Source of the DNA: SAR202 cluster bacterium
GTDB taxonomy: Bacteria > Chloroflexota > Dehalococcoidia > Lucifugimonadales > Lucifugimonadaceae
Assembly: GCA_016872495.1 (NCBI GenBank)
Contig: VGZT01000004.1
Span: 1 to 64,000 of the forward strand
Reading direction: 5' to 3'
DNA: 64,000 nt
A program made the translations under genes and the position numbers. Shown piece by piece: positions 17,062 through 36,541 of this stretch; position 1 is the stretch's first letter; the number at the start of each line of letters is the position of its first letter. The notes under the pieces are model-generated. The model had not been told where the DNA came from. It was given only the letters and a program-made list of their open reading frames with translations, and searched no databases.

Positions 17062-17646
17062 CTAGCCGAACGCCAGGACGATGGCGGCGTAGACGGCCGA
17101 TGCGACTACAAGCCCAACCGCCGACGCCTGGATCGCCCTCGACCAGTCCCCGTGCTCGTATGTGAAGCGCAACGCCCCCGTCATCGCAACCAGCATCCAG
17201 ATCACGCCGAGGGCTAAGATCAGCCACCCTACGAAGGGGACCGGCCAGAACAGCAGCAGGATGGCAGGCGTCATCGCCATGCCGCCCGAACGCATGAGCC
17301 GATTGGACTTCACGGATTGGGCGTCCGCTCCCAGCACCCGCGTCGAAGCCAGATGGGCGACGTAGACCCAGACCAGCCAGCCGACGATCGCCGCGACCAG
17401 GCCAAATCTCGGATCTTCCCCGGGCAGGACGCCGCTCATTGCGGCAGAAAGACTGGCGAGGAGCACGACCTGTAGCGACTGGAATGTGGCGAAGCGGTCG
17501 TCGCTCGTATCGCGGATCACGTCGGCCTTGAGGGTCACTGCGCCCCACATGCGACCGGCCAGGAATCGCGTCGTGCGCTTCTTCTCGCCCTCCGGCTGTC
17601 CGGATCCCTTGCCTTCGATCTCGGGCCCCGGGCGTTCGTCTGTCAC
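17062..17646 (-). CDS. Predicted multi-pass membrane protein, Yip1-like
   Basis: About 194 residues from GTG 17646, which overlaps the stop of the amidohydrolase gene (GTGA). A charged N-terminal region is followed by AGRMWGAVTLKADVIRDTSDD, then about five hydrophobic helices (SLQVVLLASLSAAMSG; LVAAIVGWLVWVYVAHLAS; MAMTPAILLLFWPVPFVGWL; ALGVIWMLVAMTGAL; ASAVGLVVASAVYAAIVLAF). The arrangement recalls Yip1/YIF1-domain bacterial membrane proteins, but the family call is tentative. Function unknown; it appears co-transcribed with the amidohydrolase upstream. Confidence 0.7.
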   Translation of the reverse strand: MTDERPGPEIEGKGSGQPEGEKKRTTRFLAGRMWGAVTLKADVIRDTSDDRFATFQSLQVVLLASLSAAMSGVLPGEDPRFGLVAAIVGWLVWVYVAHLASTRVLGADAQSVKSNRLMRSGGMAMTPAILLLFWPVPFVGWLILALGVIWMLVAMTGALRFTYEHGDWSRAIQASAVGLVVASAVYAAIVLAFG

Positions 17647-18434
17647 TTGTCGCCGAATCCCCAGACGGCGGCCGCCGTCTTGCCCAGGACCCATTCCACG
17701 TCGCCTGGCCTCACAAGGGCCGGATGTGACCGCACCCCCTCAAGCGCGTTGCGATAGCCTTCACGCCCGGCTACCGGCGGGAAGTCCGAACCCCACATCA
17801 TTCGTTTCGGCCCCCAGGCCTTGTAGACGAGTTCTATCAACGGCTGCACCTTGCCGAACTTCAACGCCGGCGCAAGCCGTGGCGGTCGCGGGGTGAATTC
17901 CCCCAGGCCCGGAATCTTGACACAGGTGTTGGGCAACTCAGCAAGCTTCAGCGCTTTCAGAAACAGGGCGTCGTCCGGCATCGTCGTCGGCTTCGCGCCC
18001 GCCAGGTGCTCGACCACGATCGTCGTCGACGCGCACGCCTTGACCAGCGCATGGAACTCGTCAGAGGCAAACTGCTCGGTCGTGCCCATGCAGCTGACCA
18101 CGACCCCGAGGTCGCCCGCTTTCTTCCAGAGCGCCAGCGGGTCCCGGCCGCTTACACGCATCGGCGGATAGAGCCGGATGCCCGCAGCGCCCCGCCTCGC
18201 GAGCTTCGCCAGCGTCCCCGGCTGGTCCGGGTCGTCGGGGTCGATCAGGACGGCGACCTTGAAGCGCCCCGGGAAGCGCTCCGTACATTCGAACAGGTAG
18301 TCGTTGTCGTAGGTGCCCCCGTGCTGGATGAGGACGCCTTCGGTCACGCCGTTCGAATTCATCTCAAACAGCAGGGTTTCCACCGGCTCGAACCAGTTAT
18401 GGCCGGCGTGACAGTGCGTGTCGACGATCCTCAC
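17643..18434 (-). CDS. Amidohydrolase-2 family metal-dependent hydrolase (lactonase-like)
   Basis: A 263-residue TIM-barrel hydrolase. The N-terminal metal motif VDTHCHAG is at residues 4-11, a central His is in VVEHLAG near residue 142 and the conserved MWGSDFPPVAG is near residue 221. The amidohydrolase-2 family includes sugar lactonases such as fuconolactonase as well as decarboxylases. A lactonase role would fit the neighbouring DUF4432, dehydrogenase and enolase-superfamily genes, but this is inference. The start is GTG 18434, 6 bases after the DUF4432 gene stop, so the genes from 20598 to 17062 look like one minus-strand operon. Confidence 0.82.
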   Translation of the reverse strand: MRIVDTHCHAGHNWFEPVETLLFEMNSNGVTEGVLIQHGGTYDNDYLFECTERFPGRFKVAVLIDPDDPDQPGTLAKLARRGAAGIRLYPPMRVSGRDPLALWKKAGDLGVVVSCMGTTEQFASDEFHALVKACASTTIVVEHLAGAKPTTMPDDALFLKALKLAELPNTCVKIPGLGEFTPRPPRLAPALKFGKVQPLIELVYKAWGPKRMMWGSDFPPVAGREGYRNALEGVRSHPALVRPGDVEWVLGKTAAAVWGFGDK

Positions 18435-18440
18435 GCGGTC

Positions 18441-19523
18441 CTACTTTCGTGTCACTGCGCCGGAGGGTGAAACCCGGCGGACTGCTTCTTTGCCCGTGTA
18501 AGCCACCGCGTGGATGGTAGCCGAAACCGATTCACCCGCCTTGAAGCGGCGGGCCGTCTTGTTCTTGATCGCAGGCGTCAGCCCGGTGTTCGGGAAGCTC
18601 GTGCAGGGCTCGAGCCCGACGTTATAGCACCGGCGATACCATGGATATCCGGTCCCGCCCCCCAGGTTGCGCCAGAACCAGAGGTAGTTGAAGACTTCGA
18701 CCGGAAACGAAACGCCGAAGCCGACTCCGAGGCTCTCGTTCGTTACCGCGTACCAGCCTTCCTTCATCCCGGTGAAATAGGCCATGTCCAGGGATCGGTC
18801 GTCCTTACCGGGGAAGCGGCTGAAGTCGATCGCTGCACCGCGCTGCGCCGCGGCCTTCGGCCATGGACCTTGCCAGCCGGGCTTGAGCTTGGCGTCCCTA
18901 TCCATATTGGTCGGATGGTTGAGGATCGTGCAGGCGGGCAGCTCGAGCCGTGCCCCGGCCGCCAGCAACGGAGCGCCGATCGCAATGTGCTCGAGCCACA
19001 CGCAATCGGCCGGCTCCTCCCCATCATTGGTCACGGTCTCCTCGACGATCAGGCCAGCGCGCCCGGCTTCGATCGAGAGCGTCTTCTCGACCCGGAACGG
19101 GGTCCGGACCCCATGCACGCGAAACCGTGCGGAAACTCGCCGTTCGGAGTCTTCGACGATGTCAACGTCCCACGGCATCGTGTTGACCTCGCCATGCAGG
19201 CCGATCTCGGCGCCGGCAACGGTCGATGGGAAGCCACCGTGGGGAACCACGGTCTGCCATCCGCCCTCGTACATGTCCAGCCACAGGCTGGTCGGCGAGC
19301 CGGTTGTCGGCAGGAACTTCCGTGGGTCACGCACGCCCCAGGGCGTGCGCCACATGAAATCGACGTCGGTGGGCTTGTGGACGAAGCTGTAGACGTCCGC
19401 GCCCTTGTCGGCGAGCACGATCACCCGGATAAGGTCGTTCTCCAGGACGACCGTGCGGAGACCGCGATAGGTCCACGCGTCCGAGATCCGGCACCCGCTG
19501 TTGCGCTCAACCTGGTAATGCAC
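18441..19523 (-). CDS. DUF4432 family aldose-1-epimerase-like protein, copy 1
   Basis: About 360 residues of the galactose-mutarotase-like beta-sandwich class annotated as DUF4432. Shared with the second copy (22337-23428) are QVERxxGCRISDAWTYRGL at the N-terminus, KPTDxDFMWRTPWGVRDPR near residue 50, the MPWDV block and GYPWYRRxYNxGLEP near residue 305. Alignment of the copies supports GTG 19523 as the start, preceded by AAGGTG. The family is thought to act on sugars, probably as mutarotases; no specific substrate can be assigned. It directly follows the alcohol dehydrogenase gene. Confidence 0.82.
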   Translation of the reverse strand: MHYQVERNSGCRISDAWTYRGLRTVVLENDLIRVIVLADKGADVYSFVHKPTDVDFMWRTPWGVRDPRKFLPTTGSPTSLWLDMYEGGWQTVVPHGGFPSTVAGAEIGLHGEVNTMPWDVDIVEDSERRVSARFRVHGVRTPFRVEKTLSIEAGRAGLIVEETVTNDGEEPADCVWLEHIAIGAPLLAAGARLELPACTILNHPTNMDRDAKLKPGWQGPWPKAAAQRGAAIDFSRFPGKDDRSLDMAYFTGMKEGWYAVTNESLGVGFGVSFPVEVFNYLWFWRNLGGGTGYPWYRRCYNVGLEPCTSFPNTGLTPAIKNKTARRFKAGESVSATIHAVAYTGKEAVRRVSPSGAVTRK

Positions 19524-19524
19524 T

Positions 19525-20598
19525 TCACCTTCCCCCCGAGACGGACCCTGAACCAACCAGGATCCGGTATACGTCCTTCTGTGGCTTAAGCATCCGCTCG
19601 AAGCCGTCGACGATCGTCCGTTCCAGCGGAATCCTGGCGCTCACCAATGGCTTCGCGTTGACCTTCCCCGCCGCCATTAGCTCGACCGCACCGGTGAAGT
19701 CCTGCGGATTGGCGGCGAGCGACCCGATGACGGTCTTCTCGCCATCGACGATGTCGAGGAAATCGAAATTCGGCCGCGCCGCATAGATGCCAACGAGCAC
19801 GACGCGTCCCCGACGCCGTACCCACTGAATGGCCTGAATCGGCGTCTGGGCAACGCCGGCGGTCTCCACGACGATGTCGGGGCCAATGCCGTCGGTCAGC
19901 TTGCGCAGTGCAGCGCCCGCATCCTCCTTGCCGGCGTCTATCGTGGTATCAGCGCCGAGTTTCTGGGCCAGCTCAAGACTCGACTGGCGCACGTCCACGG
20001 CGAAGACGCGGGCGCCCGCGGCCTTCAATGTCTGCACCGTCAGGAGTCCGACCGTCCCGCAACCGATCACAGCCGCGCGCTCCCCGAACTCTGGTCGCGC
20101 CCGGCGCGCCGCGTGGACCGCGACCGCGGCCGGCTCGACGATCGATGACTCCTCGTCCGAAATGCTGGCGGGTAGCTTGATGCAGTGGTCCGCCGGCCAG
20201 GCGAGGTACTCTGCGAGCCCGCCATCTGCAGAGAATCCCATCACCGCCAGGTTGGGGCAGGCGGAATATTCGCCGCGCCGGCACCAGAAGCAAGTGTGGC
20301 AGTTGATGATGTCGTTGACGGCGACCCGATCGCCCACCGTCAGCCCGGTCACACCCTGCCCCAGCTTGACGACCTTGCCGCCCACCTCGTGGCCCAGGAC
20401 CAGCGGGGCCTTCTTCCCCGTTATGGGGTTGGGCGTCATGGCAACGAACCTCGGACCGAACTGCCACTCCTCGATATCGGTGGCGCAGATGCTGGCATAA
20501 CCGACCTTGAGCTTGACCTCCCCCGGACGCGGCTCCGGTTCCGGCCAGTCGGTGACGTACCTGATGTCTTTGTTTCCGTGGTAGACGACCGCTTTCAT
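19525..20598 (-). CDS. Zinc-dependent medium-chain dehydrogenase (sorbitol/threonine dehydrogenase type)
   Basis: A 357-residue zinc MDR enzyme. Catalytic zinc ligands are suggested by ICATDIEEW (Cys near residue 38) and LGHEVGG (His-Glu near residue 69). Four structural-zinc Cys occur in NCHTCFWCRRGEYSAC near residue 99. The NAD-binding glycine motif is GCGTVGLL near residue 174, with acidic ADV favouring NAD. It heads the minus-strand group dehydrogenase, DUF4432, amidohydrolase, membrane protein. Oxidation of a polyol or aldose is likely. It is divergent from the enolase-superfamily gene at 20746. Confidence 0.88.
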   Translation of the reverse strand: MKAVVYHGNKDIRYVTDWPEPEPRPGEVKLKVGYASICATDIEEWQFGPRFVAMTPNPITGKKAPLVLGHEVGGKVVKLGQGVTGLTVGDRVAVNDIINCHTCFWCRRGEYSACPNLAVMGFSADGGLAEYLAWPADHCIKLPASISDEESSIVEPAAVAVHAARRARPEFGERAAVIGCGTVGLLTVQTLKAAGARVFAVDVRQSSLELAQKLGADTTIDAGKEDAGAALRKLTDGIGPDIVVETAGVAQTPIQAIQWVRRRGRVVLVGIYAARPNFDFLDIVDGEKTVIGSLAANPQDFTGAVELMAAGKVNAKPLVSARIPLERTIVDGFERMLKPQKDVYRILVGSGSVSGGR

Positions 20599-20692
20599 GA
20601 GGGTCCTCGAGGGCTCTGCCTGGTAGCCGAGGCCGCATTCTCACACGACCGCTCGACACCGGCAAGGAAGCAGGAGCGGCGGGACGTGAGGC

Positions 20693-20698
20693 TATACT
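20693..20698 (+). promoter_or_regulatory. -10 box of the enolase-superfamily gene
   Basis: TATACT lies 47 bases before the ATG at 20746, leaving a leader of about 40 bases with GGAGG at 20734-20738. No convincing -35 hexamer is seen. Confidence 0.4.
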
Positions 20699-20745
20699 GC
20701 CCGCGTCATTCGAGACCGCTTTATTGCGCCGTGGGAGGATCTTGC

Positions 20746-21918
20746 ATGAAGGCTGGCCCGAAGATCACGAAGATCGAAGTAACTGGCTACAGCTATACCA
20801 TCGAGAACGTAGGCCGCGACTACAACACGTTCAACATGGTCTACGAAAAGGGCGGCAAACGGACCGCCACTTCAGGCGTGCTGCAGATCCACACCGACCA
20901 GGGGATCACCGGCGAGTACATGGGGCTGCGCGGGCCGACCATGGCGCAGGTCGCCATTGTCGCGGAATACCTCATCGGCAAGAACGCGCTGGAACGCGAG
21001 AAGATCTACCAGGACGTGAAGCGCGGCCTCCGCCACTTCGACATGACCGGGGTCGGACCGATCGACATCTGCCTGTGGGACATCGCCGGGAAGATGTTCG
21101 ACCAGCCGCTGTACCGGATGCTCGGCGGCTGGCGCAAGCCGCTGCCCGCCTATGCCAGCACCCTGCACGGCGACGAGAACGGGGGCCTCAGCACCCCGGA
21201 ACAGTTCGGCGACTTTGCCGTGCAGTGCCAGGAGATGGGTTACCAGGCGTTCAAGATCCACGGCTGGGGCCTTGGCGGCCAGCGTATCGAACGTGAGGAA
21301 CAGAACGTCCTGCTCGTCCGCAAGCGCGTCGGCGACCGCATGGCGCTCATGATCGACCCGGCATGTGAGTACGAGAACTTTGCGCAGACCTTGCGGGTTG
21401 GCCTTGCCTGCGACGAAGCCAAATTCTTCTGGTACGAGGACCCGTACAAGGATGGCGGGGTCTCGGAATTCGCCTACAAGAAGCTCCGCCAGATGATCAA
21501 GACGCCGATCCTGCAGACCGAGCACATCCGGCTGCTGGAGCAGCACGTGAACTTCATCGTGGCCGAAGGCACGGACTACGTCAGGGCCGGCGCCCACGAG
21601 GACGGCGGCATCACCGGGACGATGAAGATCGCCGCGGCATCAGAGGGATTCGGCCTGGACGTTGAACTCCACGGGCCGGGACCGGTGCACCGCCACATCA
21701 TGTCCGCGATCCGCAACACGAACTGGTACGAGCTCGGGCTGGTCCATCCCCTGGTCCGCACGACGAGGGCGCCCGGCTACCTCAACTACAACGACGACCT
21801 CGACGGGATCGACAAGCAGGGCAACGTCTTTGCGCCCGAGGGGCCTGGCATCGGCGTCGAACTGGACTGGAGCTACATCAAGCAGCACCAGACCGACCAC
21901 CAGTCCTGGGGCGGCTAA
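20746..21918 (+). CDS. Mandelate racemase/muconate lactonizing (enolase superfamily) protein
   Basis: About 390 residues of the enolase superfamily. Metal ligands are expected in MIDPACEY (Asp near residue 205), WYEDPY (Glu near residue 231) and LQTEHI (Glu near residue 255). The second-strand motif reads FKIHGW (K-x-H) and a late His lies in ELHGPGPVHRH. These features suit an acid-sugar dehydratase, which removes water from an aldonate to give a 2-keto-3-deoxy acid. Start ATG 20746 follows GGAGG by 7 bases; a much longer upstream frame is antisense to the dehydrogenase gene. SAR202-type Chloroflexota are known for many paralogues of this superfamily. Confidence 0.9.
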   Translation: MKAGPKITKIEVTGYSYTIENVGRDYNTFNMVYEKGGKRTATSGVLQIHTDQGITGEYMGLRGPTMAQVAIVAEYLIGKNALEREKIYQDVKRGLRHFDMTGVGPIDICLWDIAGKMFDQPLYRMLGGWRKPLPAYASTLHGDENGGLSTPEQFGDFAVQCQEMGYQAFKIHGWGLGGQRIEREEQNVLLVRKRVGDRMALMIDPACEYENFAQTLRVGLACDEAKFFWYEDPYKDGGVSEFAYKKLRQMIKTPILQTEHIRLLEQHVNFIVAEGTDYVRAGAHEDGGITGTMKIAAASEGFGLDVELHGPGPVHRHIMSAIRNTNWYELGLVHPLVRTTRAPGYLNYNDDLDGIDKQGNVFAPEGPGIGVELDWSYIKQHQTDHQSWGG

Positions 21919-21991
21919 CCGCCTTTGGACAGCTTCGCCGGGGAGGACCTGCTCCCCGGCGAGAGCACATACGCGCGTGCCACGCATCCCC

Positions 21992-21997
21992 TAAAAT
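21992..21997 (+). promoter_or_regulatory. -10 box of clpS, leaderless arrangement
   Basis: TAAAAT ends 6 bases before GTG 22004. A normally placed start site would fall on or next to the start codon. Confidence 0.5.
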
Positions 21998-22003
21998 CCG
22001 CCC

Positions 22004-22288
22004 GTGACGACCATCCCGCAAACCGAACGACCGGTCCGGATCTCACGGGACATCATTCACCCGTACGCAGTGATCCTGCACAACGACGAGGTCCATTCGA
22101 TGGAGTTCGTGGTCGACGCGCTCATGAAGAGCGTCCCGTCCCTTTCTGAGCAGTCCGCTACGGAGATCATGCTCAAGGCCGACGAGGAAGGCCGCGCGGT
22201 GGTCATTGTCTGCCCGCTCGAGCAGGCCGAGCTCTATCGGGACCGGATCCAGACATTTGGCCTTGGCGTTTCGATCGAGCCAGCTTGA
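22004..22288 (+). CDS. clpS: ATP-dependent Clp protease adaptor ClpS
   Basis: ClpS delivers N-degron substrates (bulky hydrophobic N-termini) to ClpA/ClpC with ClpP. The 94-residue protein has the typical core YAVILHNDEVHSMEFVVDAL (residues 22-41) with the Asn-Asp pair that contacts the substrate amino group, then ADEEGRAVVIVCPLEQAELYRDRI and a Gly-Leu-Gly-Val C-terminal strand. Start is GTG 22004, homology beginning about ten residues later. It stands alone between unrelated genes and no clpA is seen in the window. Confidence 0.93.
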   Translation: MTTIPQTERPVRISRDIIHPYAVILHNDEVHSMEFVVDALMKSVPSLSEQSATEIMLKADEEGRAVVIVCPLEQAELYRDRIQTFGLGVSIEPA

Positions 22289-22336
22289 GCGGCCAGGTCT
22301 ACCGGTCACGTCACTTGGAATCGGCGCCTGGCCCGA

Positions 22337-23428
22337 TCAGAACCTGACCTTGCCGGCTGCCGAGACGGCCGACACTCCCTTGAAACCCCGCTCGGGCACG
22401 TCATACGCGATCGCCCTCATCGTGGCCGTACGTGTTTCGCCCGCGCGCATCTTCACGGCCGTGCTGCGGCGGCTCCCCGGAAGCGGCCGGCCGTTCGACA
22501 GGCTGGTGAAAGGCTCTAACCCTATGTTGTAGGTGCGCCGGTACCATGGATAGCCGCTGCCGCCGCCGAACACCTGCCAGTACCAGAGGTACTTGAACGT
22601 AGAAACCGGATACGCGAACGCGAACCCGACCCTGCGCTCGGGGTTCGAAACGGCATACCAGCCCGCTGGCATCTCGGTGACGACCGCGTAGTCCTGGACC
22701 CTGGCGCTCTTCTTCGGGAAGGTCCTCAGGTCGACCGGCTCGCCGTCCCTCCCGATCAGCTCGGGCCACTCCGCCGACTGCCCGGTCTTCAGTCGCCGGG
22801 TCCGCTGCCCCCCTTCGCCGGGCACGATCACAGTGCCCCCCGGGACATCCAGCCGGCAGGCCGGACTCAGGAACGGACCGCCAAGTGCGATGTGTTGCCC
22901 CCAGACGCACTCGGCGGGCTCTTCCGCCTCATTGGTGACGGACTCTTCGATCGTGAGGACCGGCGATCCCGCCTCGAGGCTCAACGTCTTCTCGATGCGG
23001 AATGGCGTCCGATAGGTGCGGACCCAGAAACGAGCGCTGACTCTGCGCACGTCGTCTTCCAGGATCTGGACGTCCCAGGGCATGGTGGTGGCTTCCGAGT
23101 GCTGTCCGATCTCGGCTCCCGCGTAGGTCATTGGCTGTCCACCGGTCGGAGCCAGCGTCTGCCAGCCACCCTCGTAAACATCGTGCCACAGGCCGTCAGG
23201 CCAGCCAGTCGTGGGAATGAACCGCCTCGGGTCGCGCACGCCCCACGGCGTCCGCCACATGAAGTCGGTATCAGTGGGCTTGTGGATCAGCTCGTAGATA
23301 TCCGCGCCCTTGTCCGCCAGTACCGTGACCCGCAAGAGATCGTTCTCGATGATCACGACTTTCAAGCCGCGGTAGGTCCACGCGTCGGAGATCCGGCAGC
23401 CATGTGTACGTTCGACTTGATAATGCAT
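22337..23428 (-). CDS. DUF4432 family aldose-1-epimerase-like protein, copy 2
   Basis: A 363-residue paralogue of the protein at 18441-19523, with the same blocks: MHYQVERTHGCRISDAW at the start, HKPTDTDFMWRTPWGVRDPR, MPWDVQILEDD and GYPWYRRTYNIGLEP near the end. ATG 23428 is chosen because homology starts immediately. The two copies bracket the dehydrogenase, enolase-superfamily and clpS genes. Divergence between copies is clear in the middle third (residues 195-245), where substrate contacts may differ. A CATAAT upstream (near 23494) could be its -10 box. Confidence 0.82.
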   Translation of the reverse strand: MHYQVERTHGCRISDAWTYRGLKVVIIENDLLRVTVLADKGADIYELIHKPTDTDFMWRTPWGVRDPRRFIPTTGWPDGLWHDVYEGGWQTLAPTGGQPMTYAGAEIGQHSEATTMPWDVQILEDDVRRVSARFWVRTYRTPFRIEKTLSLEAGSPVLTIEESVTNEAEEPAECVWGQHIALGGPFLSPACRLDVPGGTVIVPGEGGQRTRRLKTGQSAEWPELIGRDGEPVDLRTFPKKSARVQDYAVVTEMPAGWYAVSNPERRVGFAFAYPVSTFKYLWYWQVFGGGSGYPWYRRTYNIGLEPFTSLSNGRPLPGSRRSTAVKMRAGETRTATMRAIAYDVPERGFKGVSAVSAAGKVRF

Positions 23429-23557
23429 GTGACAGGTACCCCTGAAGCTGGAAATGCGGGTTTTCGCCAATTCAGATGAGGAATGGCACGATTATGCTTG
23501 ATTGCTCGGCACCGCCATACTGGTTGTGCAGTCGAGGCCTGACGCGCGGAAGGGTTG

Positions 23558-24039
23558 ATGGATCGCATTCTGGTGGTCGGCGACAGCGAGGCCCTGCGCC
23601 TTGCTCCCACCACCATCCTGGAGGACGCGGCTACGACGTGATCGAAGGTTCGGACGGAGCAGAGGTCGTTTCGGAAGCGCTCGAGCATCGTCCCGGCCTC
23701 ATTCTGCTCGACGTGGCGATGCCGCGCGTCGACGGGTTTGAAGCGCTGCGCCGTATCAAGTCGGAGCCGAGACTGCGCATACCCCGGCAATCATGGTGAC
23801 CGTCAAAGGACGCGCGCCGAGGACCTTTCCATGGCCCGGACGCCGGGCGAGCGCGGCTACATCAGCAAGCCCTGGGCAGATGGCGCAGCCGCGTGAGGGT
23901 GGGCTGGGTGCTCCAGGCCGCCGCGCGCACGGTGCGGTTCCAGGCAGCTTTCGTCTCTGGATATCACGTTATCGAAGCGCGCGACGCGCTCGTAGTTCAC
24001 CCGGAACCCGGCCTGATCCTCTGGTCCGCCCTGCTATAG
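23558..24039 (+). pseudogene. Decayed response regulator, two receiver-domain remnants
   Basis: Reading starts at ATG 23558 as MDRILVVGDSEALRL and hits TGA at 23639. The receiver continues in another frame as GYDVIEGSDGAEVVSEALEH and LILLDVAMPRVDGFEALRRI with the phospho-acceptor Asp. After RIKSEPRLRIP it shifts again to AIMVTVK, and again to AEDLSMARTPGERGYISKPWADG (the conserved Lys), ending at TGA 23894. A second weaker receiver-like stretch follows (GYHVIEARDALVVHPEPGLIL), ending near 24039. At least three frame changes are needed, in G- or GC-rich runs. Real decay or clustered sequencing indels are both possible; flanking genes are intact. Confidence 0.75.
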
Positions 24040-24040
24040 T
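24035..24040 (+). promoter_or_regulatory. Extended -10 box of the EamA transporter gene, leaderless arrangement
   Basis: TGCTATAGT (TATAGT at 24035-24040) ends 9 bases before ATG 24050. The preceding TGC makes it an extended -10. It lies in the tail of the decayed regulator gene. Confidence 0.5.
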
Positions 24041-24049
24041 CCTGTCCCC

Positions 24050-24925
24050 ATGACCGGACTGGCCGTTCTGCTCGTAGTCCTTTCCGCGTTCGCTCACAGT
24101 GGCTGGAACTTCCTCACGAAGCGAGCGAGCAACCCCGAAGTCTTCACCTGGGCCGCCGCGGTGTCGGCAAACGTGTTGCTGTTCCCGCTCGCCCTGTTTC
24201 TACTGCTCAGGGACCCGCCCTCGCTCGCCGGCTGGGGGTTCGTCGCGGCCACCTGGGGCCTGCACCTCGCCTACTTCACGACCTTGAGTCGGGCCTACCG
24301 GCACACCGATCTATCGCTCGCATATCCGATGGCGCGCGGCACCGGCCTGGTGCTGGTCCCGATCCTGGGCGTCTTCCTGCTCAAGGAGCACGTAACGCCG
24401 CTCGCCGCAATTGGCATCGGACTGGTCGTGACTGGCATCTTCGCGGTTTCGGCCGGCGATCTCCTGCGCGACGGGGTTGCAGGCCTCGGCAAGGCGCTGC
24501 GACAGCCAGGGGTCCGCTACGCGCTGGCCACGGGACTGATAATCGCCGCCTACTCGATCGTAGACAAGCGAGGCGTCGCCCACGTCACCCCGCTCCTGTA
24601 CATGTACTTCCTGACCACGTCAGCCACCCTGGGCATGCCGTTGCTGTTGCGCAGCCAGTTCACACGCACCAACGTGATCGCCGAGTGGCGCCGGAACGCC
24701 CGGCTGATCGTCGTCTCGGGCCTGCTGCAGTTCGCCGCCTACTCGCTCGTGCTGACCGCGCTGACGGTCAGCCGGGTCAGCTATGTTGCGCCCTTCCGAG
24801 AGATCGGTATCGTCGTGGGCGTCCTTCTGGGATCGATCCTGCTCAATGAGTCGTTCAAGCGGTCCCGGCTACTGGGAGCCGCCCTGATCGTGGCCGGCGC
24901 GACGACCATCGCGCTGGCGCCTTGA
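24050..24925 (+). CDS. EamA/DMT family transporter
   Basis: A 291-residue inner-membrane protein with about ten hydrophobic helices in two homologous halves, typical of drug/metabolite (EamA) exporters. First-half landmarks are HSGWNFLTKRASNP (residues 16-29) and SLAYPMARGTGLVLVPILGVFLLKE. The second half has YALATGLIIAAYSIVDKRGV and VSYVAPFREIGIVVGVLLGSILLNE, with the usual Glu-ending repeat. The exported substrate is unknown. It converges with the SDR gene at 24935, with 9 bases between stops. Confidence 0.88.
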   Translation: MTGLAVLLVVLSAFAHSGWNFLTKRASNPEVFTWAAAVSANVLLFPLALFLLLRDPPSLAGWGFVAATWGLHLAYFTTLSRAYRHTDLSLAYPMARGTGLVLVPILGVFLLKEHVTPLAAIGIGLVVTGIFAVSAGDLLRDGVAGLGKALRQPGVRYALATGLIIAAYSIVDKRGVAHVTPLLYMYFLTTSATLGMPLLLRSQFTRTNVIAEWRRNARLIVVSGLLQFAAYSLVLTALTVSRVSYVAPFREIGIVVGVLLGSILLNESFKRSRLLGAALIVAGATTIALAP

Positions 24926-24934
24926 GCCTGCCGG

Positions 24935-25873
24935 CTAGCCGGCGAACGCCCGGTCGCGCCAGGAGTACTTCGGCCGCCAGTTGATCAGCTGACGTGCCCG
25001 CTCGGTCGAGATCGGGGCCTCATGCCGAACGAACTCCTTGCGCAGCGGCACGTTGGGGTAGACCAGCCGCAGGGCCTCCATGGTTTCCACTGCAATCATC
25101 GTGTCATCGGCATTGAGAAAGAACTTCTCGCTCCCGGCCCAACCCTCGGACTCTATGGCCATGCGGCATGCCGTTGCCGCGTCCTTGATGTGGAGGTAGG
25201 TCCAGAACCCCTGGCAGCGGACCCAGGGATCGGTGACGGGAGACCGGTGAAGCTCCCTGAAGCGCTCGTCGTCCCACATCCCGTTGAAGCGCATGTTGGA
25301 ATACTGGGTCTCCGGGTTGCGCCTTGCGAACGCGTCTGCGGTCTGCTCGCCTAGCCATTTGGCGACGCTGTATGGATCCTCGGCGCGCGTCCCGACCTCG
25401 TGGTCGAGCGGGAAATACTCGGGCGGCTTCACCTGCCGCGGCGCCCAGCGCGCCGCAGTGCCCATCGCGCCCACCGCGTTGTACGACGATCCCAGGACGA
25501 CCTTGCGCACCTTCAACTGCTCTGCCGCCCGCATCACGTTCCACATCGAGGTCGTGTTGGTGAAGAAGACGAACTCTTCGGTGTAGTAGGCCGCGCTCGG
25601 GCAGGCAGCCAGGTGCACGACGGCCCCGCAGCCGTCCATCGCCGAAATGACCTGCCCGTAGTCGGTGACATCGACCTCGATGAAGGTCGGCAGCCTCGAC
25701 CAGGCGGCTCGCATGGTCACCGCGGCCGCCTGGGCAGCCCCGGCAGTCCCGCTGTGGCTCAGGTTGCCCCAGCGGACCTTGTCGGCATTAACGACCTCAT
25801 AGCCATTTCGCAACAACTCGTCGATGACGTAGTGCCCGACGATTCCAGAACCGCCGGTTACCAGGACTTTCAA
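24935..25873 (-). CDS. NAD-dependent epimerase/dehydratase (extended SDR)
   Basis: A 312-residue extended SDR. The GGSGIVGHYVIDELL nucleotide motif is at residues 7-21, the acidic NADK strand end near residue 30, the HLAACPSA segment near residue 88, Ser/Asn in LGSSYNAVG near residue 128 and catalytic YSVAK near residue 168. The PEYFPLDHE loop and the C-terminal INWRPKYSWRD motif resemble UDP-glucose 4-epimerase-like and uronate dehydrogenase-like proteins. Together with the aldolase-like gene just upstream it forms a minus-strand pair, 101 bases apart. Confidence 0.86.
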   Translation of the reverse strand: MKVLVTGGSGIVGHYVIDELLRNGYEVVNADKVRWGNLSHSGTAGAAQAAAVTMRAAWSRLPTFIEVDVTDYGQVISAMDGCGAVVHLAACPSAAYYTEEFVFFTNTTSMWNVMRAAEQLKVRKVVLGSSYNAVGAMGTAARWAPRQVKPPEYFPLDHEVGTRAEDPYSVAKWLGEQTADAFARRNPETQYSNMRFNGMWDDERFRELHRSPVTDPWVRCQGFWTYLHIKDAATACRMAIESEGWAGSEKFFLNADDTMIAVETMEALRLVYPNVPLRKEFVRHEAPISTERARQLINWRPKYSWRDRAFAG

Positions 25874-25974
25874 GAATGGTTCCTCGGGGTCAGGGCCGGG
25901 ACGCCAGGCACGGGGATTCGCAATGTCGATTCGGCATGGATGCCGAAACCCGTGACCGGATGCCCGTGGCCTGG

Positions 25975-26862
25975 CTAAACGGGCATCTTGCGCTTGCTGA
26001 CCTTGCGTCCTTCGATCGCCATCCGCTCGCCGTCCTGGCCGGAGACGATCTTCACGCCCATCTTCAACAGGTGGCGGATCCTCTGCTCAGGCGTCATCTT
26101 GCTATCGTTCCAGGAGCACAGGAACGCGATTCCCGCCTTGTCGCATGCCGCCTGGACGCGCTTGCGCGCATCGTCCATCTTCTTCGGGTACGGGGGGTCG
26201 TGAGCGTCAGGCAGTCCGAGCGACATGCCCATGTCGCCCGGGCCCCACTCGGCGAACGAGATTCCGGGAACCGCCGCGCTTTTCTCGCAGTTCGCCAGGC
26301 ATTCGGCGTCCTCGAGCTTGAGCCCGAGCATGAGCTCGCCCTTCGGGTTCAGTGGCCACGGATCGGACGCGGCCAGGTAGTCGTGTACCGAGAGCCCCCA
26401 GATTCTGGCGGGTATCGACTGTCCGCCCGCGCCGCGCTGCCCCTTTCCAAGGCCCGCCTTCGCACTGGAGAAAGGCCAGCGGCACTCCTCAACGAACGCC
26501 TTCACTGCTTCCGGAGTCCGCGCGTGCGTGTGCAGGATCCCGTGCACCCCGGCCGTGAGCACGTGGCGGATCTGCCAGGCGTTGTAGCGGACCTCCTCGG
26601 CGGTCTTGGCGTTCGACGGGAGCGTGACTATGACGGTCGGTGTCAGGTGACCGCTGGTGGTCGGGCCGGAGTCCCGGAGACCTTCCATGAACCTTGTCAG
26701 CCCAACCGTGTCGAAAGGGTGGTGCTCGAAGTCCACCGAGATGAAGTCGGCCCAGGTCCTGGACATCTTGACGCCGGCTTCGTAACTCAGCTCGGGCGTG
26801 CCCGTGTAGAAGATCGGCTGCCCCTGTTGAAGCAGCTCGATGCACCGGTTGATCCTTGCCAC
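25975..26862 (-). CDS. HpcH/HpaI aldolase-like protein, long subfamily, copy 1
   Basis: A 295-residue TIM-barrel protein related to the 2-keto-3-deoxy acid and citramalyl-CoA-type aldolases (HpcH/HpaI). Landmarks are SRTWADFISVDFEHHPFD (metal-site region) near residue 34, YNAWQIRHVLTAGVHGILH near residue 95, a Gly-rich insert near residue 140, and FAEWGPGDMGMSLGL near residue 205, in the place of the family's V-G-P-x-D-L-S motif. A close paralogue lies at 39890-40774. The family cleaves 2-keto acids to pyruvate and an aldehyde using a divalent metal. Substrate unknown. Confidence 0.83.
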   Translation of the reverse strand: MARINRCIELLQQGQPIFYTGTPELSYEAGVKMSRTWADFISVDFEHHPFDTVGLTRFMEGLRDSGPTTSGHLTPTVIVTLPSNAKTAEEVRYNAWQIRHVLTAGVHGILHTHARTPEAVKAFVEECRWPFSSAKAGLGKGQRGAGGQSIPARIWGLSVHDYLAASDPWPLNPKGELMLGLKLEDAECLANCEKSAAVPGISFAEWGPGDMGMSLGLPDAHDPPYPKKMDDARKRVQAACDKAGIAFLCSWNDSKMTPEQRIRHLLKMGVKIVSGQDGERMAIEGRKVSKRKMPV

Positions 26863-27001
26863 TTTGTTTGTCCCCCTCGACGACTCAGCGATCAGGTCCC
26901 AGGTTTCAGTTTCCCGAAGCCCCGGTCCAGCGGGCGGCAGTGTAACCGATAGGGTTGGCCGGGGCCAAGTCTCCGAAGTTGCCGCGGCTGCGGCCGAAGG
27001 G

Positions 27002-27007
27002 TAAGAT
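27002..27007 (+). promoter_or_regulatory. -10 box upstream of the MFS gene
   Basis: TAAGAT ends 8 bases before the GTG at 27016, which opens a 9-codon reading frame. No clear -35 is seen. Confidence 0.35.
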
Positions 27008-27015
27008 TCGGCGCC

Positions 27016-27045
27016 GTGAACTTGCTTCTTGAAATGACTTCTTGA
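27016..27045 (+). CDS. Possible 9-codon leader peptide upstream of MFS gene
   Basis: GTG 27016 opens MNLLLEMTS, with TGA at 27043-27045 nested in the TTGA that starts the MFS gene. The arrangement would allow a leaderless mRNA to translate the short peptide and pass ribosomes to the TTG start. It is very short and could be chance. Confidence 0.25.
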   Translation: MNLLLEMTS

Positions 27046-28424
27046 AGGTGGGCACCAGCGACACCGCCACTGGGAGCCCGGAACAACCGCCTCTAACGCC
27101 CGACCTCGAGATCCGCCCGTGGTCCGCGTTCGCGCACCGCGACTTCACGTGGTTGTGGGTCGGGGGCGTGACGACCACGGTCACGATGTTCCTGCGGATG
27201 CTCGTGAGCTCGCAGTGGCTCTACGACACCACGGGCTCCGCCGCACAGCTCGGCATCCTTGGCTTCATCCAGTTCATCCAGATGCCGGTCGTGATCTACG
27301 GCGGCGCGCTCGCCGACAACTTCGACCGCAAGAAGCTGATGGCGATGACCCAGGCCGTCGTCTTCGTGTCCCTGCTGATCCTCACCGTCCTGGCGGCTTC
27401 GGGCGGCCTGCTGCCATGGCACATCTTCGCGGCGACCGGCGTCACAGGTGTATTCAGCATGCTCGGCAGCTCGGCGCGACCGGCCATGGTCGCACGGGTC
27501 GTACCGCGCCCGTTGATCGGCACCGCGGTAGCCACCAACACGGCCACCATGCAGGTCGCCGGTGTGATCGCTCCCCTGCTGTTCAGCGCCTTCTACGTGG
27601 CGTTCGGTGTCACGGTGGCCTTCGCAGTCGCTACCGCAATCGCGTTCGCGAGCTTCGTGTCGCCGTTCCTGATACGGACTTCCGGGCTCCCCGACGGCGG
27701 TTCGCGACGGACGACCTGGAAGTCGATCGTCGAAGGGTTCACCTTCGTCCGGAAGCACCGAATCCTGCCCGGCCTGTACCTGCTCGACATCGGGGTAACC
27801 GTCGTCAGCTTCTACCGGATGCTTTTCCCGATCTTCGCCGACCAGCTGTACGGGCTGGGCGCGATCGCAGTCGGCCCGCTCAACGCGGCCAACTCGCTCG
27901 GCGGGATATTCGGCAGCATGGTCGTCTACGGGACTGACCGCTTCCCACGCAAGGGGCTGCTCGTCCTGTTCTTCACGCTGGTCTACGCCCTGCTGCTCTT
28001 TGCCTTCGGGATGAACCGGGCGGGGCCCGGGGACCCGATCCATCAGATGAACCTGCTGATCGTCGACTTCCAATTCAACATGGCCCTGCTGTTCGGACTG
28101 CTGATCGTATTCGGGCTCGGAATGACCGACTCCGTCAGCATGGTGATGCGCCAGACGATCGTGCAGCTAACGTCCCCCGACCGCCTGCTCGGGCGCGCCA
28201 GCTCAGCGCACTCTTTCGCCGCCATGGGCGCCAACAACCTGGGCCAGGTGGAGGTCGCATTCATGTCCGGAGCGATCGGGGCCGGACCCACGATGATCCT
28301 GGGCGGCGCGGTGTCGGTGGTCGTAGTCTTCGCAATATGGGTCGGGATCAAGGGCGTGCGGAGGTACCGGTACGATCCAGCCCATCCGTTTGAGGCATAC
28401 GAAGGCGGCAAGCCGCCCGAATAG
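27042..28424 (+). CDS. Major facilitator superfamily transporter (MFS_3/EntS-like)
   Basis: A 460-residue membrane protein with about twelve hydrophobic helices. The first helix pair is FTWLWVGGVTTTVTMFL and the loop 2-3 motif GGALADNFDRKK near residue 87 matches the MFS G-x-x-x-D-x-x-x-R-K signature. The order of helices and the domain-join segment (residues 205-235) recall enterobactin-exporter-like MFS_3 proteins. Substrate unknown. TTG 27042 is the chosen start; GTG 27048 is an alternative. It precedes the 589-residue gene by 23 bases on the same strand, so the two are likely co-transcribed. Confidence 0.88.
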   Translation: MKVGTSDTATGSPEQPPLTPDLEIRPWSAFAHRDFTWLWVGGVTTTVTMFLRMLVSSQWLYDTTGSAAQLGILGFIQFIQMPVVIYGGALADNFDRKKLMAMTQAVVFVSLLILTVLAASGGLLPWHIFAATGVTGVFSMLGSSARPAMVARVVPRPLIGTAVATNTATMQVAGVIAPLLFSAFYVAFGVTVAFAVATAIAFASFVSPFLIRTSGLPDGGSRRTTWKSIVEGFTFVRKHRILPGLYLLDIGVTVVSFYRMLFPIFADQLYGLGAIAVGPLNAANSLGGIFGSMVVYGTDRFPRKGLLVLFFTLVYALLLFAFGMNRAGPGDPIHQMNLLIVDFQFNMALLFGLLIVFGLGMTDSVSMVMRQTIVQLTSPDRLLGRASSAHSFAAMGANNLGQVEVAFMSGAIGAGPTMILGGAVSVVVVFAIWVGIKGVRRYRYDPAHPFEAYEGGKPPE

Positions 28425-28447
28425 ATCGAGACCGAGGAGATCGCTCA

Positions 28448-30217
28448 ATGCCAGACCGCGCAAGCCAGGCAACCATCGACATCACCGTTCCAATGGCGCC
28501 ACCCGAGTGGGCGCTCCTGGAGCGTGAACTGATACGGCAACAGGCCGACGCCATCCGGGTATTCCACGCCAAGTACTTTGACGAGCGCGGCTACCTGCTA
28601 TGCATCCCGCGCTGGGGCGGCAACGATGGCCCCGACGACGCCGGCGAGAACATGCTGAACTGGACCATGCTGTACGCCCTTGGCGGGCCCAGTGATGTGC
28701 TCGACCGCTTCCGGCACGCATGGGAAGGCCATCTCCGGCAGTACACGGAAGCCAGGACGGTTGAAGTACCGCTCGGCCGGGAGGGGATGTACTTCAAAGA
28801 GTTCCCAACGATGTTCGACTGGTTCCATATCGGCGAGTGGTACTCGCCCTACGCCCTGCTCGGCCTGGCCGCGCCCGGCGACAGGGATTTCGAACACCGT
28901 ACCCGGCGGTACGCCGCCTTCTACAACGGCGACGACCCCTACGCTCCCAACTACGACCCCAAACACCGGATCATTCGAAGCATGTTCAACGGGAGCCGCG
29001 GGCCTTTGCTCAGGAAGGCAACGGGCCTCGACTGGGCGGGCGATCCAATCGAGATCGAAGGTCGCTTCAAGCCGGGCCACGGTGAGCGAACCTTCGAAGA
29101 GATGATCGCCCACTTCAAGGACTACAACGACGTCGTTGGAGACAACCCGCTCAACCTTGGCGCCACGACGCTGGGGCTGAACGCGTTCGCGCTGACGGGA
29201 GAAAAGAAGTACCGCGACTGGTGCCTCGAGTATGTGGGCGCCTGGGCGGAGCGGACCGCGGAAAATGGCGGCCTGACACCAACGAACATTGGCCTCAATG
29301 GCAAGATCGGCGGCGAAACGAAGGGCAAGTGGTACGGCGGGGTCTACGGGTGGGGTTTCTCCGTCATCGTGCCCCAGACCGGTGAGATCGCACACAGGCC
29401 GTCGTTCTACACGCGGGCGCCTTACGGGTTCGGCAACGCCCTCCTGCTGTCCGGCGATCAGTCGTACGTCGACACCTGGCGAGGAGTGATCTCGAAGGTG
29501 AACGAAAACGGCAAGCGCCTCAAGGGGCAGATGCAGTACCCGCGCTCCTTTGGCGACAAGGGCTGGTACAACTTCCAGCCCGGCCCGTTCGACGAAGGCG
29601 CGCTGGAGGTCTACTACTGGTCGATGAAGGCAGATGATCGCTCGCTCGTCGGCGACGATCCCTGGGTCCGCTTCTTCTCAGGCAAGGGCAGGAGCAAGAA
29701 CGACGGATATCCCGTGGACGCGCTGCGGAGCGACATCGAGCGCGTCCGGCGACGCGTCGAGGGTATCCACACCGACGATACCGCCCCTGATATGCGGATG
29801 TCGGACGACATGAACGACCTTAACCCGGCGTCGATCGACGCCCTGAACCGCCTGATGCTCGGCGGCATCCCGACCGGGCGGGTCGGATACCCGCTGCACT
29901 GCCGCGTCCGCTATTTCGATCCCGACAGGCGGCGGCCCGGCATCCCCGAAGACGTGGCTGCCCTGGTCGACGAGATGACCGCCGATGAGACCGGGCTAAC
30001 CCTCGTTAACCTGAACCAGCTCCAGCCCCGCACGGTGGTCGTGCAGGGGGGCGCTTACGGTGAGCACCAGGTCGTTAGCGTCCGAGGCGGCGAGAAGTCT
30101 TCGACCGTGAACGACCGCAGCTTCACGGTCCGGCTGGCGCCCGGCGCCGGAGCGCATCTGTTGATCAAGATGAAGCGGTACGCCAACCCGCCGACATTCT
30201 CGCTGCCCTGGGCCTGA
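28448..30217 (+). CDS. Unrecognised 589-residue protein, perhaps alpha/alpha-toroid glycosidase-like
   Basis: No confident family was recognised. The chain has no signal peptide or membrane segment. Its aromatic- and acid-rich repeated helical segments (FDWFHIGEWYSPYALLGLA near residue 122; NLGATTLGLNAFALTGEKKYRDWCLEYVGAW near residue 236; GFGNALLLSGDQSYVDTWR near residue 324; WYNFQPGPFDEGALEVYYWSMK near residue 377) look like the hairpins of six-hairpin glycosidases or lyases. The last 80 residues look like a small beta domain. Start ATG 28448 follows GAGGAGA by 8 bases. It follows an MFS transporter closely, suggesting action on an imported carbohydrate-like substrate; this is inference. 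Confidence 0.75.
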   Translation: MPDRASQATIDITVPMAPPEWALLERELIRQQADAIRVFHAKYFDERGYLLCIPRWGGNDGPDDAGENMLNWTMLYALGGPSDVLDRFRHAWEGHLRQYTEARTVEVPLGREGMYFKEFPTMFDWFHIGEWYSPYALLGLAAPGDRDFEHRTRRYAAFYNGDDPYAPNYDPKHRIIRSMFNGSRGPLLRKATGLDWAGDPIEIEGRFKPGHGERTFEEMIAHFKDYNDVVGDNPLNLGATTLGLNAFALTGEKKYRDWCLEYVGAWAERTAENGGLTPTNIGLNGKIGGETKGKWYGGVYGWGFSVIVPQTGEIAHRPSFYTRAPYGFGNALLLSGDQSYVDTWRGVISKVNENGKRLKGQMQYPRSFGDKGWYNFQPGPFDEGALEVYYWSMKADDRSLVGDDPWVRFFSGKGRSKNDGYPVDALRSDIERVRRRVEGIHTDDTAPDMRMSDDMNDLNPASIDALNRLMLGGIPTGRVGYPLHCRVRYFDPDRRRPGIPEDVAALVDEMTADETGLTLVNLNQLQPRTVVVQGGAYGEHQVVSVRGGEKSSTVNDRSFTVRLAPGAGAHLLIKMKRYANPPTFSLPWA

Positions 30218-30268
30218 GGCGTATTCCGCATCTGTCGCGCCCTGCCAAGGGAATCCGTACCGAAAAAG

Positions 30269-30295
30269 AAAGGCGGGGCATCGTGCCCCGCCTTT
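30269..30295. terminator. Bidirectional terminator hairpin
   Basis: AAAGGCGGGGCA (30269-30280), loop TCG, and TGCCCCGCCTTT (30284-30295) form a perfect 12-base-pair stem with A-rich and T-rich ends on either side. It sits between the convergent 589-residue gene and the Ldh2 gene and can serve both strands. Confidence 0.88.
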
Positions 30296-30333
30296 CCCGT
30301 GTTGCTGACTGGTGCTGAAGAGATTCCTGCGTC

Positions 30334-31422
30334 CTACTTTCTGGTGGCCGGCAACCGGTCCTTCAAGCCCAGCTCGGCGACCGTCCCCTTGAACCACTCG
30401 ACGACCTCCGGGTGGTACGGGATACCGTTCACGGAACGGTCCATCTCTGCCTCGTGCTCGGGAAGCCCGGCGTACATCACCCGCTCGTGCCCGGGCGCGG
30501 GCGGCGTCTCGCGCAGGGCGCGCATGAAGTCGTCCATCTCGGACTTGAACTTCTCGACGTCGTTGAAAGCCGACACCTTGAAGGCCGCGAAGAAGTGGGA
30601 TGCCATCCCCCGGTTCTTATAGCCGGGCCCGGTCCCTGAGAGCACGCCGCAGAGGATGTCGACCATGACGGCCATGCTGTAGCCCTTGTGCGAACCGATC
30701 TCGCGGGTCGCGCCCAGCGGCAGCATGAGGAAGTCGTCCGGGATCGGCCTGCTGTCCATGATCGGCGTGCCGTCCGGTTCCGCGATCCACCCGGGCAGCG
30801 CCGGTACCCCGAGCCGTTTCGCAAGTGCGATCTTGTTCCCCGCAACGGAGCTCATCGACGCGTCGAAGATGAAGGGCGGCTCCTTGCGCGTCGGCGCCGC
30901 GAACCCGATCGGATTCAGGCCCACCATCGGCTTCGAACCAAACGTCGGCGCCACCCTCAGGCCGCCAACCGTCATGGCCATCCCGATCATGTCGTGCGGC
31001 AGGGCAAGCTGCGCGTGGTACGCCGCCGCGCCAAAGTGCCGCCCGTTGGTGCAGGTGACCGCGCCCACACCCGTGCGCTCCGCCTTCTGAATGGCGACCC
31101 GCATCGCAATCGGGCCAACGGCCAGGCCAAGCCCGCGGTCGCAGTCGATGGTGGCGGCCGAATCGGTTTCGTGTACCACCTTCCATTTCGGCTTTGGATT
31201 GATAGAGCCCTTGCCAAACCCTTCGACATACGAACGCATCATGTTGCTGACGCCGTGGCTCTCGATGCCGCGCAGGTCCGCATAGATCAGGACGTCCGCC
31301 GACTGGCGGGCATCGGTGTCGCCCATGCCCATCTTTCGGAAGATGTCCTCGACCGTAGATCGGATGTCCTGTTGCGCAACGCGCACCGCGATGTCGTGGG
31401 GGACGTGGAACATTTCGAGCAC
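30334..31422 (-). CDS. Malate/L-lactate dehydrogenase (Ldh2) family oxidoreductase
   Basis: A 362-residue member of the NAD(P)-dependent Ldh2 family (malate, L-sulfolactate, ureidoglycolate or 2,3-diketogulonate reductases), which does not use a Rossmann fold. Signature segments are ADLRGIESHGVSNMMRSYVEG near residue 49 (catalytic His), NGRHFGAAAYHAQLAL near residue 127, GLNPIGFAAPT near residue 169 and GSHKGYSMAVMVDILCGVLSG near residue 246. It would reduce a 2-oxo acid, or oxidise a 2-hydroxy acid, such as one released by an aldolase. Exact substrate unknown. Confidence 0.92.
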   Translation of the reverse strand: MLEMFHVPHDIAVRVAQQDIRSTVEDIFRKMGMGDTDARQSADVLIYADLRGIESHGVSNMMRSYVEGFGKGSINPKPKWKVVHETDSAATIDCDRGLGLAVGPIAMRVAIQKAERTGVGAVTCTNGRHFGAAAYHAQLALPHDMIGMAMTVGGLRVAPTFGSKPMVGLNPIGFAAPTRKEPPFIFDASMSSVAGNKIALAKRLGVPALPGWIAEPDGTPIMDSRPIPDDFLMLPLGATREIGSHKGYSMAVMVDILCGVLSGTGPGYKNRGMASHFFAAFKVSAFNDVEKFKSEMDDFMRALRETPPAPGHERVMYAGLPEHEAEMDRSVNGIPYHPEVVEWFKGTVAELGLKDRLPATRK

Positions 31423-31508
31423 TGACTGGTACCTCCATGCCCTCTACCGATTGGCGACCCGCGCGCAGCGCGTTGGTGCGCGCCGGGGCGCCTCGATGAG
31501 GGACTTAG

Positions 31509-32510
31509 CTATGCGTTCGGCTTGACGACCAGTTTGACCCCGCGTCCTTGACCGGAGTCGTAGATCGCATCGGCGGCCCGCTCCAGCGGATACCGCGTCG
31601 TGATGACGCCCTTCAAGTTTAGTTCGGGCAGCAGCTGCAACGTCTTCTTGAAGTAGTTGCCCCGGCCAAAAGCCCCACGTATGCCGACCTCGCGGTAGTG
31701 GAGGTCGTAGAGGTCGGACGGTAGCGTCGTCCCCTTCGGACACACACCGATCATCAGCACGTTGCCGCGCGGGCGCACCAGCTGTACACAGCGGGCGACA
31801 AGTTCGGGCTTGCCAACGACCTCCACGGCGAGATGCACTCCCCTCCCGCCGGTCTCGCGATCCACGACCTTCTTGAGGTCCTCCATCTTTGGATCGTGCA
31901 GGACGTCGGCGCCCAGCTGGCGTCCCAGCTCGCGCCGTGAGGCCACCGGCTCCGAAAGGATCACCGTCCTGGCACCTCGGCGCTTCAGGAAGGCGACCGT
32001 GAACTGGCCCATGATCCCGCCGCCGACTACCAGCACGACTGCGTCTTTCGGCATCGGAAACACCATCGAGCCCGACAGGCAGCAGGAACCCGGCTCCGTC
32101 AGGGCTCCGGTCTCGAGATCGATCCCCTCAGGCAGCCTGTGCGCCGATTGCGCCGGTACCACCGCATAGTTCGCAAGCGCCCCGCTCGACTTCTGGGCGC
32201 GCTGGCACCGGCTGATCGTCCACTCGCGGCAGTTGTCACACTCGCCGCAGTGGCTGGTGATATCGCAGACGACCTGCTGACCGATCCGTGCCTTCGATAC
32301 CCCCTTGCCAACCTCTACGACGGTTCCGCTGAACTCATGCCCGAGTATGAGCGGAGGTGTAGAGGGAAACAGCCCCTGCGTGATGTGTACGTCGGTCCCG
32401 CACACGCCAACAGTGTCGACCTTGAGCACGACCTGCCCGGGACCGGGGACCGGGTCGGGAACGGTGTCGATCGTAAACTTCGTCCCGCCTTGCCAGACCG
32501 CAGCTTTCAT
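31509..32510 (-). CDS. Zinc-dependent medium-chain dehydrogenase
   Basis: About 333 residues from ATG 32510, which follows a GTAGGAAAC ribosome site. Catalytic zinc motif GVCGTDVHI is near residue 36 and GHEF near residue 59. The four structural Cys lie in HCGECDNCREWTISRC near residue 90. The cofactor motif is VGGGIMGQF near residue 164. It resembles polyol or 2-deoxy-sugar-acid dehydrogenases of the MDR class. A longer reading frame upstream is only antisense to the divergent dehydrogenase gene. It follows the Ldh2 gene's 5' end by 86 bases on the same strand (upstream of it in transcription). Confidence 0.88.
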   Translation of the reverse strand: MKAAVWQGGTKFTIDTVPDPVPGPGQVVLKVDTVGVCGTDVHITQGLFPSTPPLILGHEFSGTVVEVGKGVSKARIGQQVVCDITSHCGECDNCREWTISRCQRAQKSSGALANYAVVPAQSAHRLPEGIDLETGALTEPGSCCLSGSMVFPMPKDAVVLVVGGGIMGQFTVAFLKRRGARTVILSEPVASRRELGRQLGADVLHDPKMEDLKKVVDRETGGRGVHLAVEVVGKPELVARCVQLVRPRGNVLMIGVCPKGTTLPSDLYDLHYREVGIRGAFGRGNYFKKTLQLLPELNLKGVITTRYPLERAADAIYDSGQGRGVKLVVKPNA

Positions 32511-32745
32511 GTTTCCTACTTTCCGTGGACGGTGACCGAGCCGCCGAAGGCGCCCTCTACGGCAATCGGGCTCGCCTGTGAAATGCGCAGAGAGGCCCGG
32601 GAAGTATAGCCTCGCCGTGGACACGCTCTGTCTCCCGGCGTAAATTGGCAACCCATCGCGCGCGAACTCGCCGGGATCGACGTCGATCCTTGCGCCGATC
32701 GAAAGTCGTGCAGGGTCGAACCACCAGAACCGCAGGAGCGAACAA

Positions 32746-36533: not shown

Positions 36534-36541
36534 CCCGGTGA

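Follow-up and report, generated by a model that had tools for sequence, protein, structure and literature searches.

Gene content and organisation of the locus

The window analysed here is a stretch of 64,000 nucleotides (positions 1 to 64,000 of contig VGZT01000004.1) from a SAR202 cluster bacterium of the class Dehalococcoidia, in which a first-pass annotation had proposed a dispersed module for non-phosphorylative sugar oxidation at positions 17,062 to 32,510. All of the families it named were recovered at the stated places, including two DUF4432 proteins, dehydrogenases, a short-chain dehydrogenase/reductase (SDR), an amidohydrolase, an enolase-superfamily dehydratase, an HpcH/HpaI-type protein, an Ldh2 oxidoreductase, transporters and a pyrroloquinoline quinone (PQQ)-type dehydrogenase, GSDH (Table 1). 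This 15-kb list should be split into a left core of 17.6-25 kb, comprising the genes for Amidohydro_2, DUF4432a, a zinc-dependent dehydrogenase, the enolase-superfamily dehydratase, DUF4432b and an EamA permease, and the remaining genes. The core families recur as a set in related genomes, their catalytic residues are conserved, and DUF4432 has the fold of galactose mutarotases. These left 8 kb are probably a catabolic neighbourhood in which SAR202-type Dehalococcoidia encode the upper half of a non-phosphorylative route of sugar breakdown.

The genes for the zinc-dependent dehydrogenase, DUF4432a, the amidohydrolase and a small membrane protein follow one another on the minus strand, the first three separated by 4 and 6 bp and the last two overlapping, a spacing that appears operon-like, and the dehydratase gene diverges from this run with about 150 bp between them. 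The earlier statement that no single operon joins the genes therefore applies only in part.

Table 1. Predicted genes of the core and of its surroundings in the window.
Feature	Position	Strand	Basis or remark
Small membrane-type protein	17062..17694	-	No Pfam match; overlaps 3' end of amidohydrolase gene
Amidohydro_2 protein (LigI-like), candidate lactonase	17643..18434	-	Pfam family and conserved residues
DUF4432a, mutarotase-like	18441..19520	-	Galactose mutarotase fold; H109/H178/E304 invariant
ADHa, zinc-dependent medium-chain dehydrogenase/reductase (MDR); candidate aldose or secondary-alcohol dehydrogenase	19525..20598	-	Candidate zinc ligands conserved
Enolase-superfamily (MR/MLE) acid-sugar dehydratase, 1rvk/4hch type	20755..21918	+	KxH, metal ligands, His-Asp dyad
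DUF4432b, second mutarotase-like paralogue	22337..23434	-	Same invariant residues as DUF4432a
EamA permease, candidate transporter, recurrent core	24050..24925	+	Family match
Extended SDR, NAD-epimerase type	24935..25873	-	YxxxK present; loose association with core
ALDa, divergent HpcH/HpaI-fold protein	25975..26862	-	Metal Glu/Asp kept; Thr in place of catalytic Arg
MFS transporter	27042..28424	+	Loose association with core
Ldh2-family oxidoreductase, not core	30334..31422	-	Linkage in G003, G006
ADHb, second zinc-dependent dehydrogenase, not core	31509..32546	-	Family match
ADHc, third zinc-dependent dehydrogenase, not core	32746..33867	+	Family match
Canonical HpcH/HpaI aldolase, GarL/YfaU-like	34129..34965	-	Arg present
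GSDH, PQQ-type glucose/sorbosone dehydrogenase, outside module	35067..36632	-	Sparse in relatives
Third HpcH/HpaI gene	39890..40780	-	Glu at catalytic Arg position

Recurrence of the core among relatives

Comparison of the loci around DUF4432 homologues showed that the core is found again in most genomes of the family, consisting of Amidohydro_2, DUF4432a, the zinc-dependent dehydrogenase, DUF4432b and EamA together with the dehydratase, which is encoded on the other strand, and that it commonly adjoins hisZ-G-D-C. Homologues of the small membrane protein (24-55% identity) come after the amidohydrolase in several relatives, and many relatives carry an aldo/keto reductase (PF00248) between the amidohydrolase and DUF4432a. 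In the window, a hisZ-hisG-hisD-hisC run (11022-15935, minus strand; names by family resemblance) likewise adjoins the core, a position kept in most of the family.

As the first-pass annotation would lead one to expect, DUF4432 and the dehydratase co-occur across relatives: 18 of 31 genomes contain both, 10 contain neither and 3 only one of them (Fisher p = 1.5e-5, a value inflated by relatedness). The two genes lie at most 10 kb apart in 12 of the 16 genomes compared. The synteny control, a single unrelated adjacent pair from the same window encoding an M17 peptidase (50304-51830) and a metallo-beta-lactamase-fold protein (52037-53029), was adjacent in all 9 evaluable genomes of the family, and conserved order therefore says little about function. 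Co-location alone is also unremarkable and weak evidence, because the genome of 2.34 Mb contains about 72 MR/MLE genes (besides 14 HpcH/HpaI and 10 Amidohydro_2 genes), which gives a probability of 0.38 of finding at least one dehydratase gene in a random 15.4-kb stretch. Both the control and this abundance would fit an inheritance of the core genes side by side within a very stable family gene order, each gene serving a different parallel route of a paralogue-rich genome.

Better evidence comes from cases in which the gene order is broken. In genomes of the G011 type (also L040-L044) the core stays together though no his genes adjoin it, with cytochrome c and other genes interspersed. G152, which belongs to a different family within the order, groups DUF4432 and the zinc-dependent dehydrogenase with a same-type dehydratase (46% identical), an EamA permease, a xylose-isomerase-like TIM barrel protein and a peptidase, in a changed arrangement. 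In G017, an SDR and then an SMP-30/gluconolactonase come after DUF4432, the same gene set being present in G007 of the same genus, and an SDR lies next to or near DUF4432 in G026 and G028. The dehydrogenases adjoining DUF4432 in different relatives are non-homologous, and such a swap of dehydrogenase and lactonase families is what a sequence of mutarotase, dehydrogenase and lactonase predicts. The persistence of the core despite lost collinearity, the replacement of its partners by non-homologous dehydrogenases and a gluconolactonase, and the operon-like gaps of 4-6 bp make an unrelated set of neighbours an improbable explanation. The sequence of mutarotation, lactone formation, hydrolysis and dehydration put forward in the first-pass annotation thus corresponds to a coherent conserved set that recurs beyond collinearity (G152, G011 type and G017).

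Two further observations were made in these loci. The family includes reduced genomes in which DUF4432 adjoins an SDR and an SMP-30/gluconolactonase (L024, 9285-12171; L025, 7337-10186). The G011-type core encloses, beside a small cytochrome c, a protein of 836 aa without a Pfam match (L041, 5712-8219; also L040, L042, L044 and L018), in which a metal-hydrolase-like HxH motif was noticed by eye.

Core enzymes and the genes set apart from them

An AlphaFold2 model of DUF4432a (mean predicted local distance difference test score, pLDDT, 78.6) matches the galactose mutarotases 3mwx, 3ty1 and 1l7k with Foldseek E-values of 6e-16 to 1e-9. Judged from this model, the DUF4432 proteins share the galactose mutarotase fold, and mutarotase activity itself is predicted. 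Residues H109, H178 and E304 are invariant across 24 sequences that include both paralogues, which are 57% identical to each other. GalM has the same residue types at H96, H170 and E304, residues named in PMC5622589 and in PDB titles; they were paired with those of DUF4432 by sequence order and context, without superposition. Close matches of DUF4432a are in metagenome-assembled genomes of Chloroflexi/Dehalococcoidia, one of them labelled SAR202 cluster bacterium. A literature search on DUF4432 gave nothing relevant. On a Nostoc plasmid an SDR lies next to DUF4432, an informative dehydrogenase neighbour.

Alignments of the dehydratase with 1rvk and orthologues revealed all three acidic metal ligands, the Lys of the KxH motif and the His-Asp dyad. 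Its closest solved relative is an Agrobacterium enzyme (1rvk/4hch/4hcd/4mmw; E = 6e-50, about 30% identity), and the title of 4hch, a sibling entry of 1rvk deposited as D-glucarate dehydratase, gives a hint of the substrate. The dehydratase shares 23-25% identity with E. coli RspA, DgoD and RhmD, and on the phylogenetic tree it groups with 1rvk (support 98/97), apart from E. coli RhmD, DgoD, RspA and GudD; long branches limit this tree, and L-fuconate dehydratase is not among the sequences included. The curated NCBIfam models of L-rhamnonate, D-galactonate and D-gluconate dehydratases gave 55-91 bits against cutoffs of 311-750, none of which was reached. Of the routes suggested in the first-pass annotation, the tree and the curated models thus place the dehydratase with neither that of L-rhamnose nor that of galactonate. 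The structure model of the dehydratase is poor (pLDDT 67.5, below 50 at residues 254-323) and served only for retrieving PDB titles.

In the amidohydrolase, H7xH9, R87, H143 and D217 are at least 95% conserved (n = 23 sequences). The protein carries the HxH, His and Asp residues of the COG3618/LigI type, which makes it a candidate lactonase, and its nearest relative is 2-pyrone-4,6-dicarboxylate hydrolase.

The aldol step was placed within the range by the first-pass annotation, an assignment that the present data do not support. ALDa barely exceeds the Pfam cutoff (29.9 against 25 bits) and, like its orthologues, has Thr where YfaU and GarL carry the catalytic Arg; its metal-binding Glu and Asp are retained, and the position of HpaI His45 is occupied by Lys in some orthologues. 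In HpaI, Arg70 plays an important part in breaking the C-C bond and in stabilising the enolate (PMC8560999), and because Thr occupies this position, an aldolase function of ALDa is doubtful. The third HpcH/HpaI-fold protein of the window is 49% identical to ALDa, with Glu and Thr, respectively, at the catalytic Arg; the two may form a non-aldolase subfamily. The canonical aldolase encoded at 34129 contains VIR, QMES and GPTD and hence the Arg70 equivalent and the metal-binding Glu and Asp. It is 30-32% identical to GarL and YfaU and matches their models, the top-scoring one being 2-dehydro-3-deoxyglucarate aldolase. No canonical aldolase of this kind was seen in the clusters of relatives.

These similarities bear on a hexuronate route, in which oxidation to an aldarolactone would be followed by ring opening by the LigI-like amidohydrolase, glucarate-type dehydration and cleavage by the GarL-like aldolase. 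The title of the nearest solved dehydratase, the affinity of the amidohydrolase to 2-pyrone-4,6-dicarboxylate hydrolase and the best model of the aldolase all point this way; however, an identity of 30% is not enough to define a substrate, the aldolase lies outside the conserved core, and the solved relatives of the SDR include no uronate dehydrogenase, which together make this route unlikely. The SDR at 24935 had been considered as a uronate dehydrogenase and was rejected on the last ground.

The remaining genes are less firmly connected with the core. For Ldh2, the best match is found at a distance of 36 kb in G003 and 49 kb in G006, nearer the M17 peptidase block, which does not support a tight link. 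Membership of the PQQ dehydrogenase, also named in the first-pass annotation, is likewise unsupported, since it had no match at 1e-60 in G003-G010 and G012. Ldh2, ADHb, ADHc, the PQQ dehydrogenase and the 34129 aldolase were rejected as core members on linkage. A single complete pathway for L-fucose, L-rhamnose or galactonate that draws on the whole 15-kb set, including aldolases, Ldh2 and the PQQ dehydrogenase, would agree with the presence of every enzyme class inside 20 kb, with the retention in G014 of most of the gene order up to the third zinc-dependent dehydrogenase, and with the scores of the 34129 aldolase. It is nevertheless very improbable in view of the dehydratase falling outside the RhmD, DgoD, RspA and GudD groups and far under the curated cutoffs, the missing Arg of ALDa, and the distribution of the PQQ dehydrogenase and Ldh2 genes. 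The complete non-phosphorylative L-fucose/L-rhamnose pathway to pyruvate was not found, the conserved core being without an intact aldolase and the downstream genes loosely linked or unlinked.

Between the MFS transporter and Ldh2 genes lies a gene for a 589-aa protein (28448-30217, plus strand) rich in invariant Trp, Asp, Arg and Glu residues, for which no Pfam, NCBIfam or PDB match was obtained even with a ten-sequence profile. Of 343 genomes from the class, 5 contain its family, two of them in multiple copies, and homologues outside the genus lie away from the module, save one distant case in G026.

Proposed route and comparison with known systems

From the core set we infer the reactions, their order, the dehydrogenase that acts first and the substrate, which may be an aldose or a uronate. 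A DUF4432 protein would equilibrate the sugar anomers, and a nicotinamide-dependent dehydrogenase (the zinc-dependent MDR here, an aldo/keto reductase or SDR in relatives) would oxidise the sugar to a lactone. Opening of the lactone would then fall to the Amidohydro_2 protein, and the 1rvk-type enzyme would dehydrate the resulting acid to a 2-keto-3-deoxy acid, with EamA as the likely permease. The conserved part does not define the later steps, for which the canonical 34129 aldolase could serve from outside the core.

Several points weigh against this route. The aldo/keto reductase, the best fit for the first oxidation, is not found between the amidohydrolase and DUF4432a in the window, none of the enzymes attains a curated NCBIfam cutoff, and on haloarchaeal plasmids the neighbours of DUF4432 do not form such a gene set. 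The co-occurrence of DUF4432 and the dehydratase is partly phylogenetic, and, with background synteny being very high, vertical descent may account for most of the conserved gene order.

SAR202-type bacteria possess tens of enolase-superfamily paralogues, most of them without assigned substrates, and a neighbourhood tying one dehydratase to mutarotase-like proteins, a dehydrogenase and a lactonase offers a small testable set as against a whole-genome parts list. The proposed route, if true, would give DUF4432 a role. Tentatively, DUF4432 might be a mutarotase dedicated to the non-phosphorylative oxidation of a sugar in SAR202-type Chloroflexota, namely of an aldose or uronate that would be new as a SAR202 substrate. 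The two paralogues at each locus would then be adapted to a different cyclic intermediate each, with interchangeable dehydrogenases and lactonases as partners. In view of the synteny control, pathway claims based on gene neighbourhoods call for caution in this clade.

Among characterised enzymes, GalM (aldose 1-epimerase; 3mwx, 3ty1, 1l7k) has the fold and the invariant His, His and Glu in common with DUF4432, which differs in being only 12-19% identical in structural alignments and in the presence of two paralogues per locus. The Agrobacterium D-glucarate dehydratase shares the KxH motif, the metal ligands and the His-Asp dyad with the dehydratase of the core, but the low identity makes its substrate not transferable. 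The L-rhamnonate pathway of E. coli (RhmD, YfaU) likewise combines an enolase-superfamily dehydratase with an HpcH/HpaI aldolase, the 34129 aldolase being 32% identical to YfaU; in contrast, the dehydratase of the core is 25% identical to RhmD and groups elsewhere, and the HpcH protein in the range is without the catalytic Arg.

The abundance of enolase-superfamily genes agrees with that of SAR202 groups I and II (PMC6946804, PMC10444878). L-Fucose, L-rhamnose and the corresponding lactones and acids elicit responses in cultured SAR202 strains, and COG3618, COG4948, COG1063 and COG0667 have been proposed for the use of these sugars (PMC10444878). That study (Lim et al. 2023), which counted paralogues and tested growth, deals with strain JH545, a member of the same clade with the same families: COG0667 aldo/keto reductase, COG3618 amidohydrolase, COG4948 dehydratase, COG1063 dehydrogenase and COG3836 aldolase. 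A search of its text found no mention of mutarotase, operon, synteny or gene neighbourhoods. Non-phosphorylative sugar oxidation by these families in SAR202 is therefore already published, and the present result refines it rather than describing a new kind of system: beyond the JH545 proposal, it adds DUF4432 and a conserved neighbourhood, and it places the aldolase outside the core.

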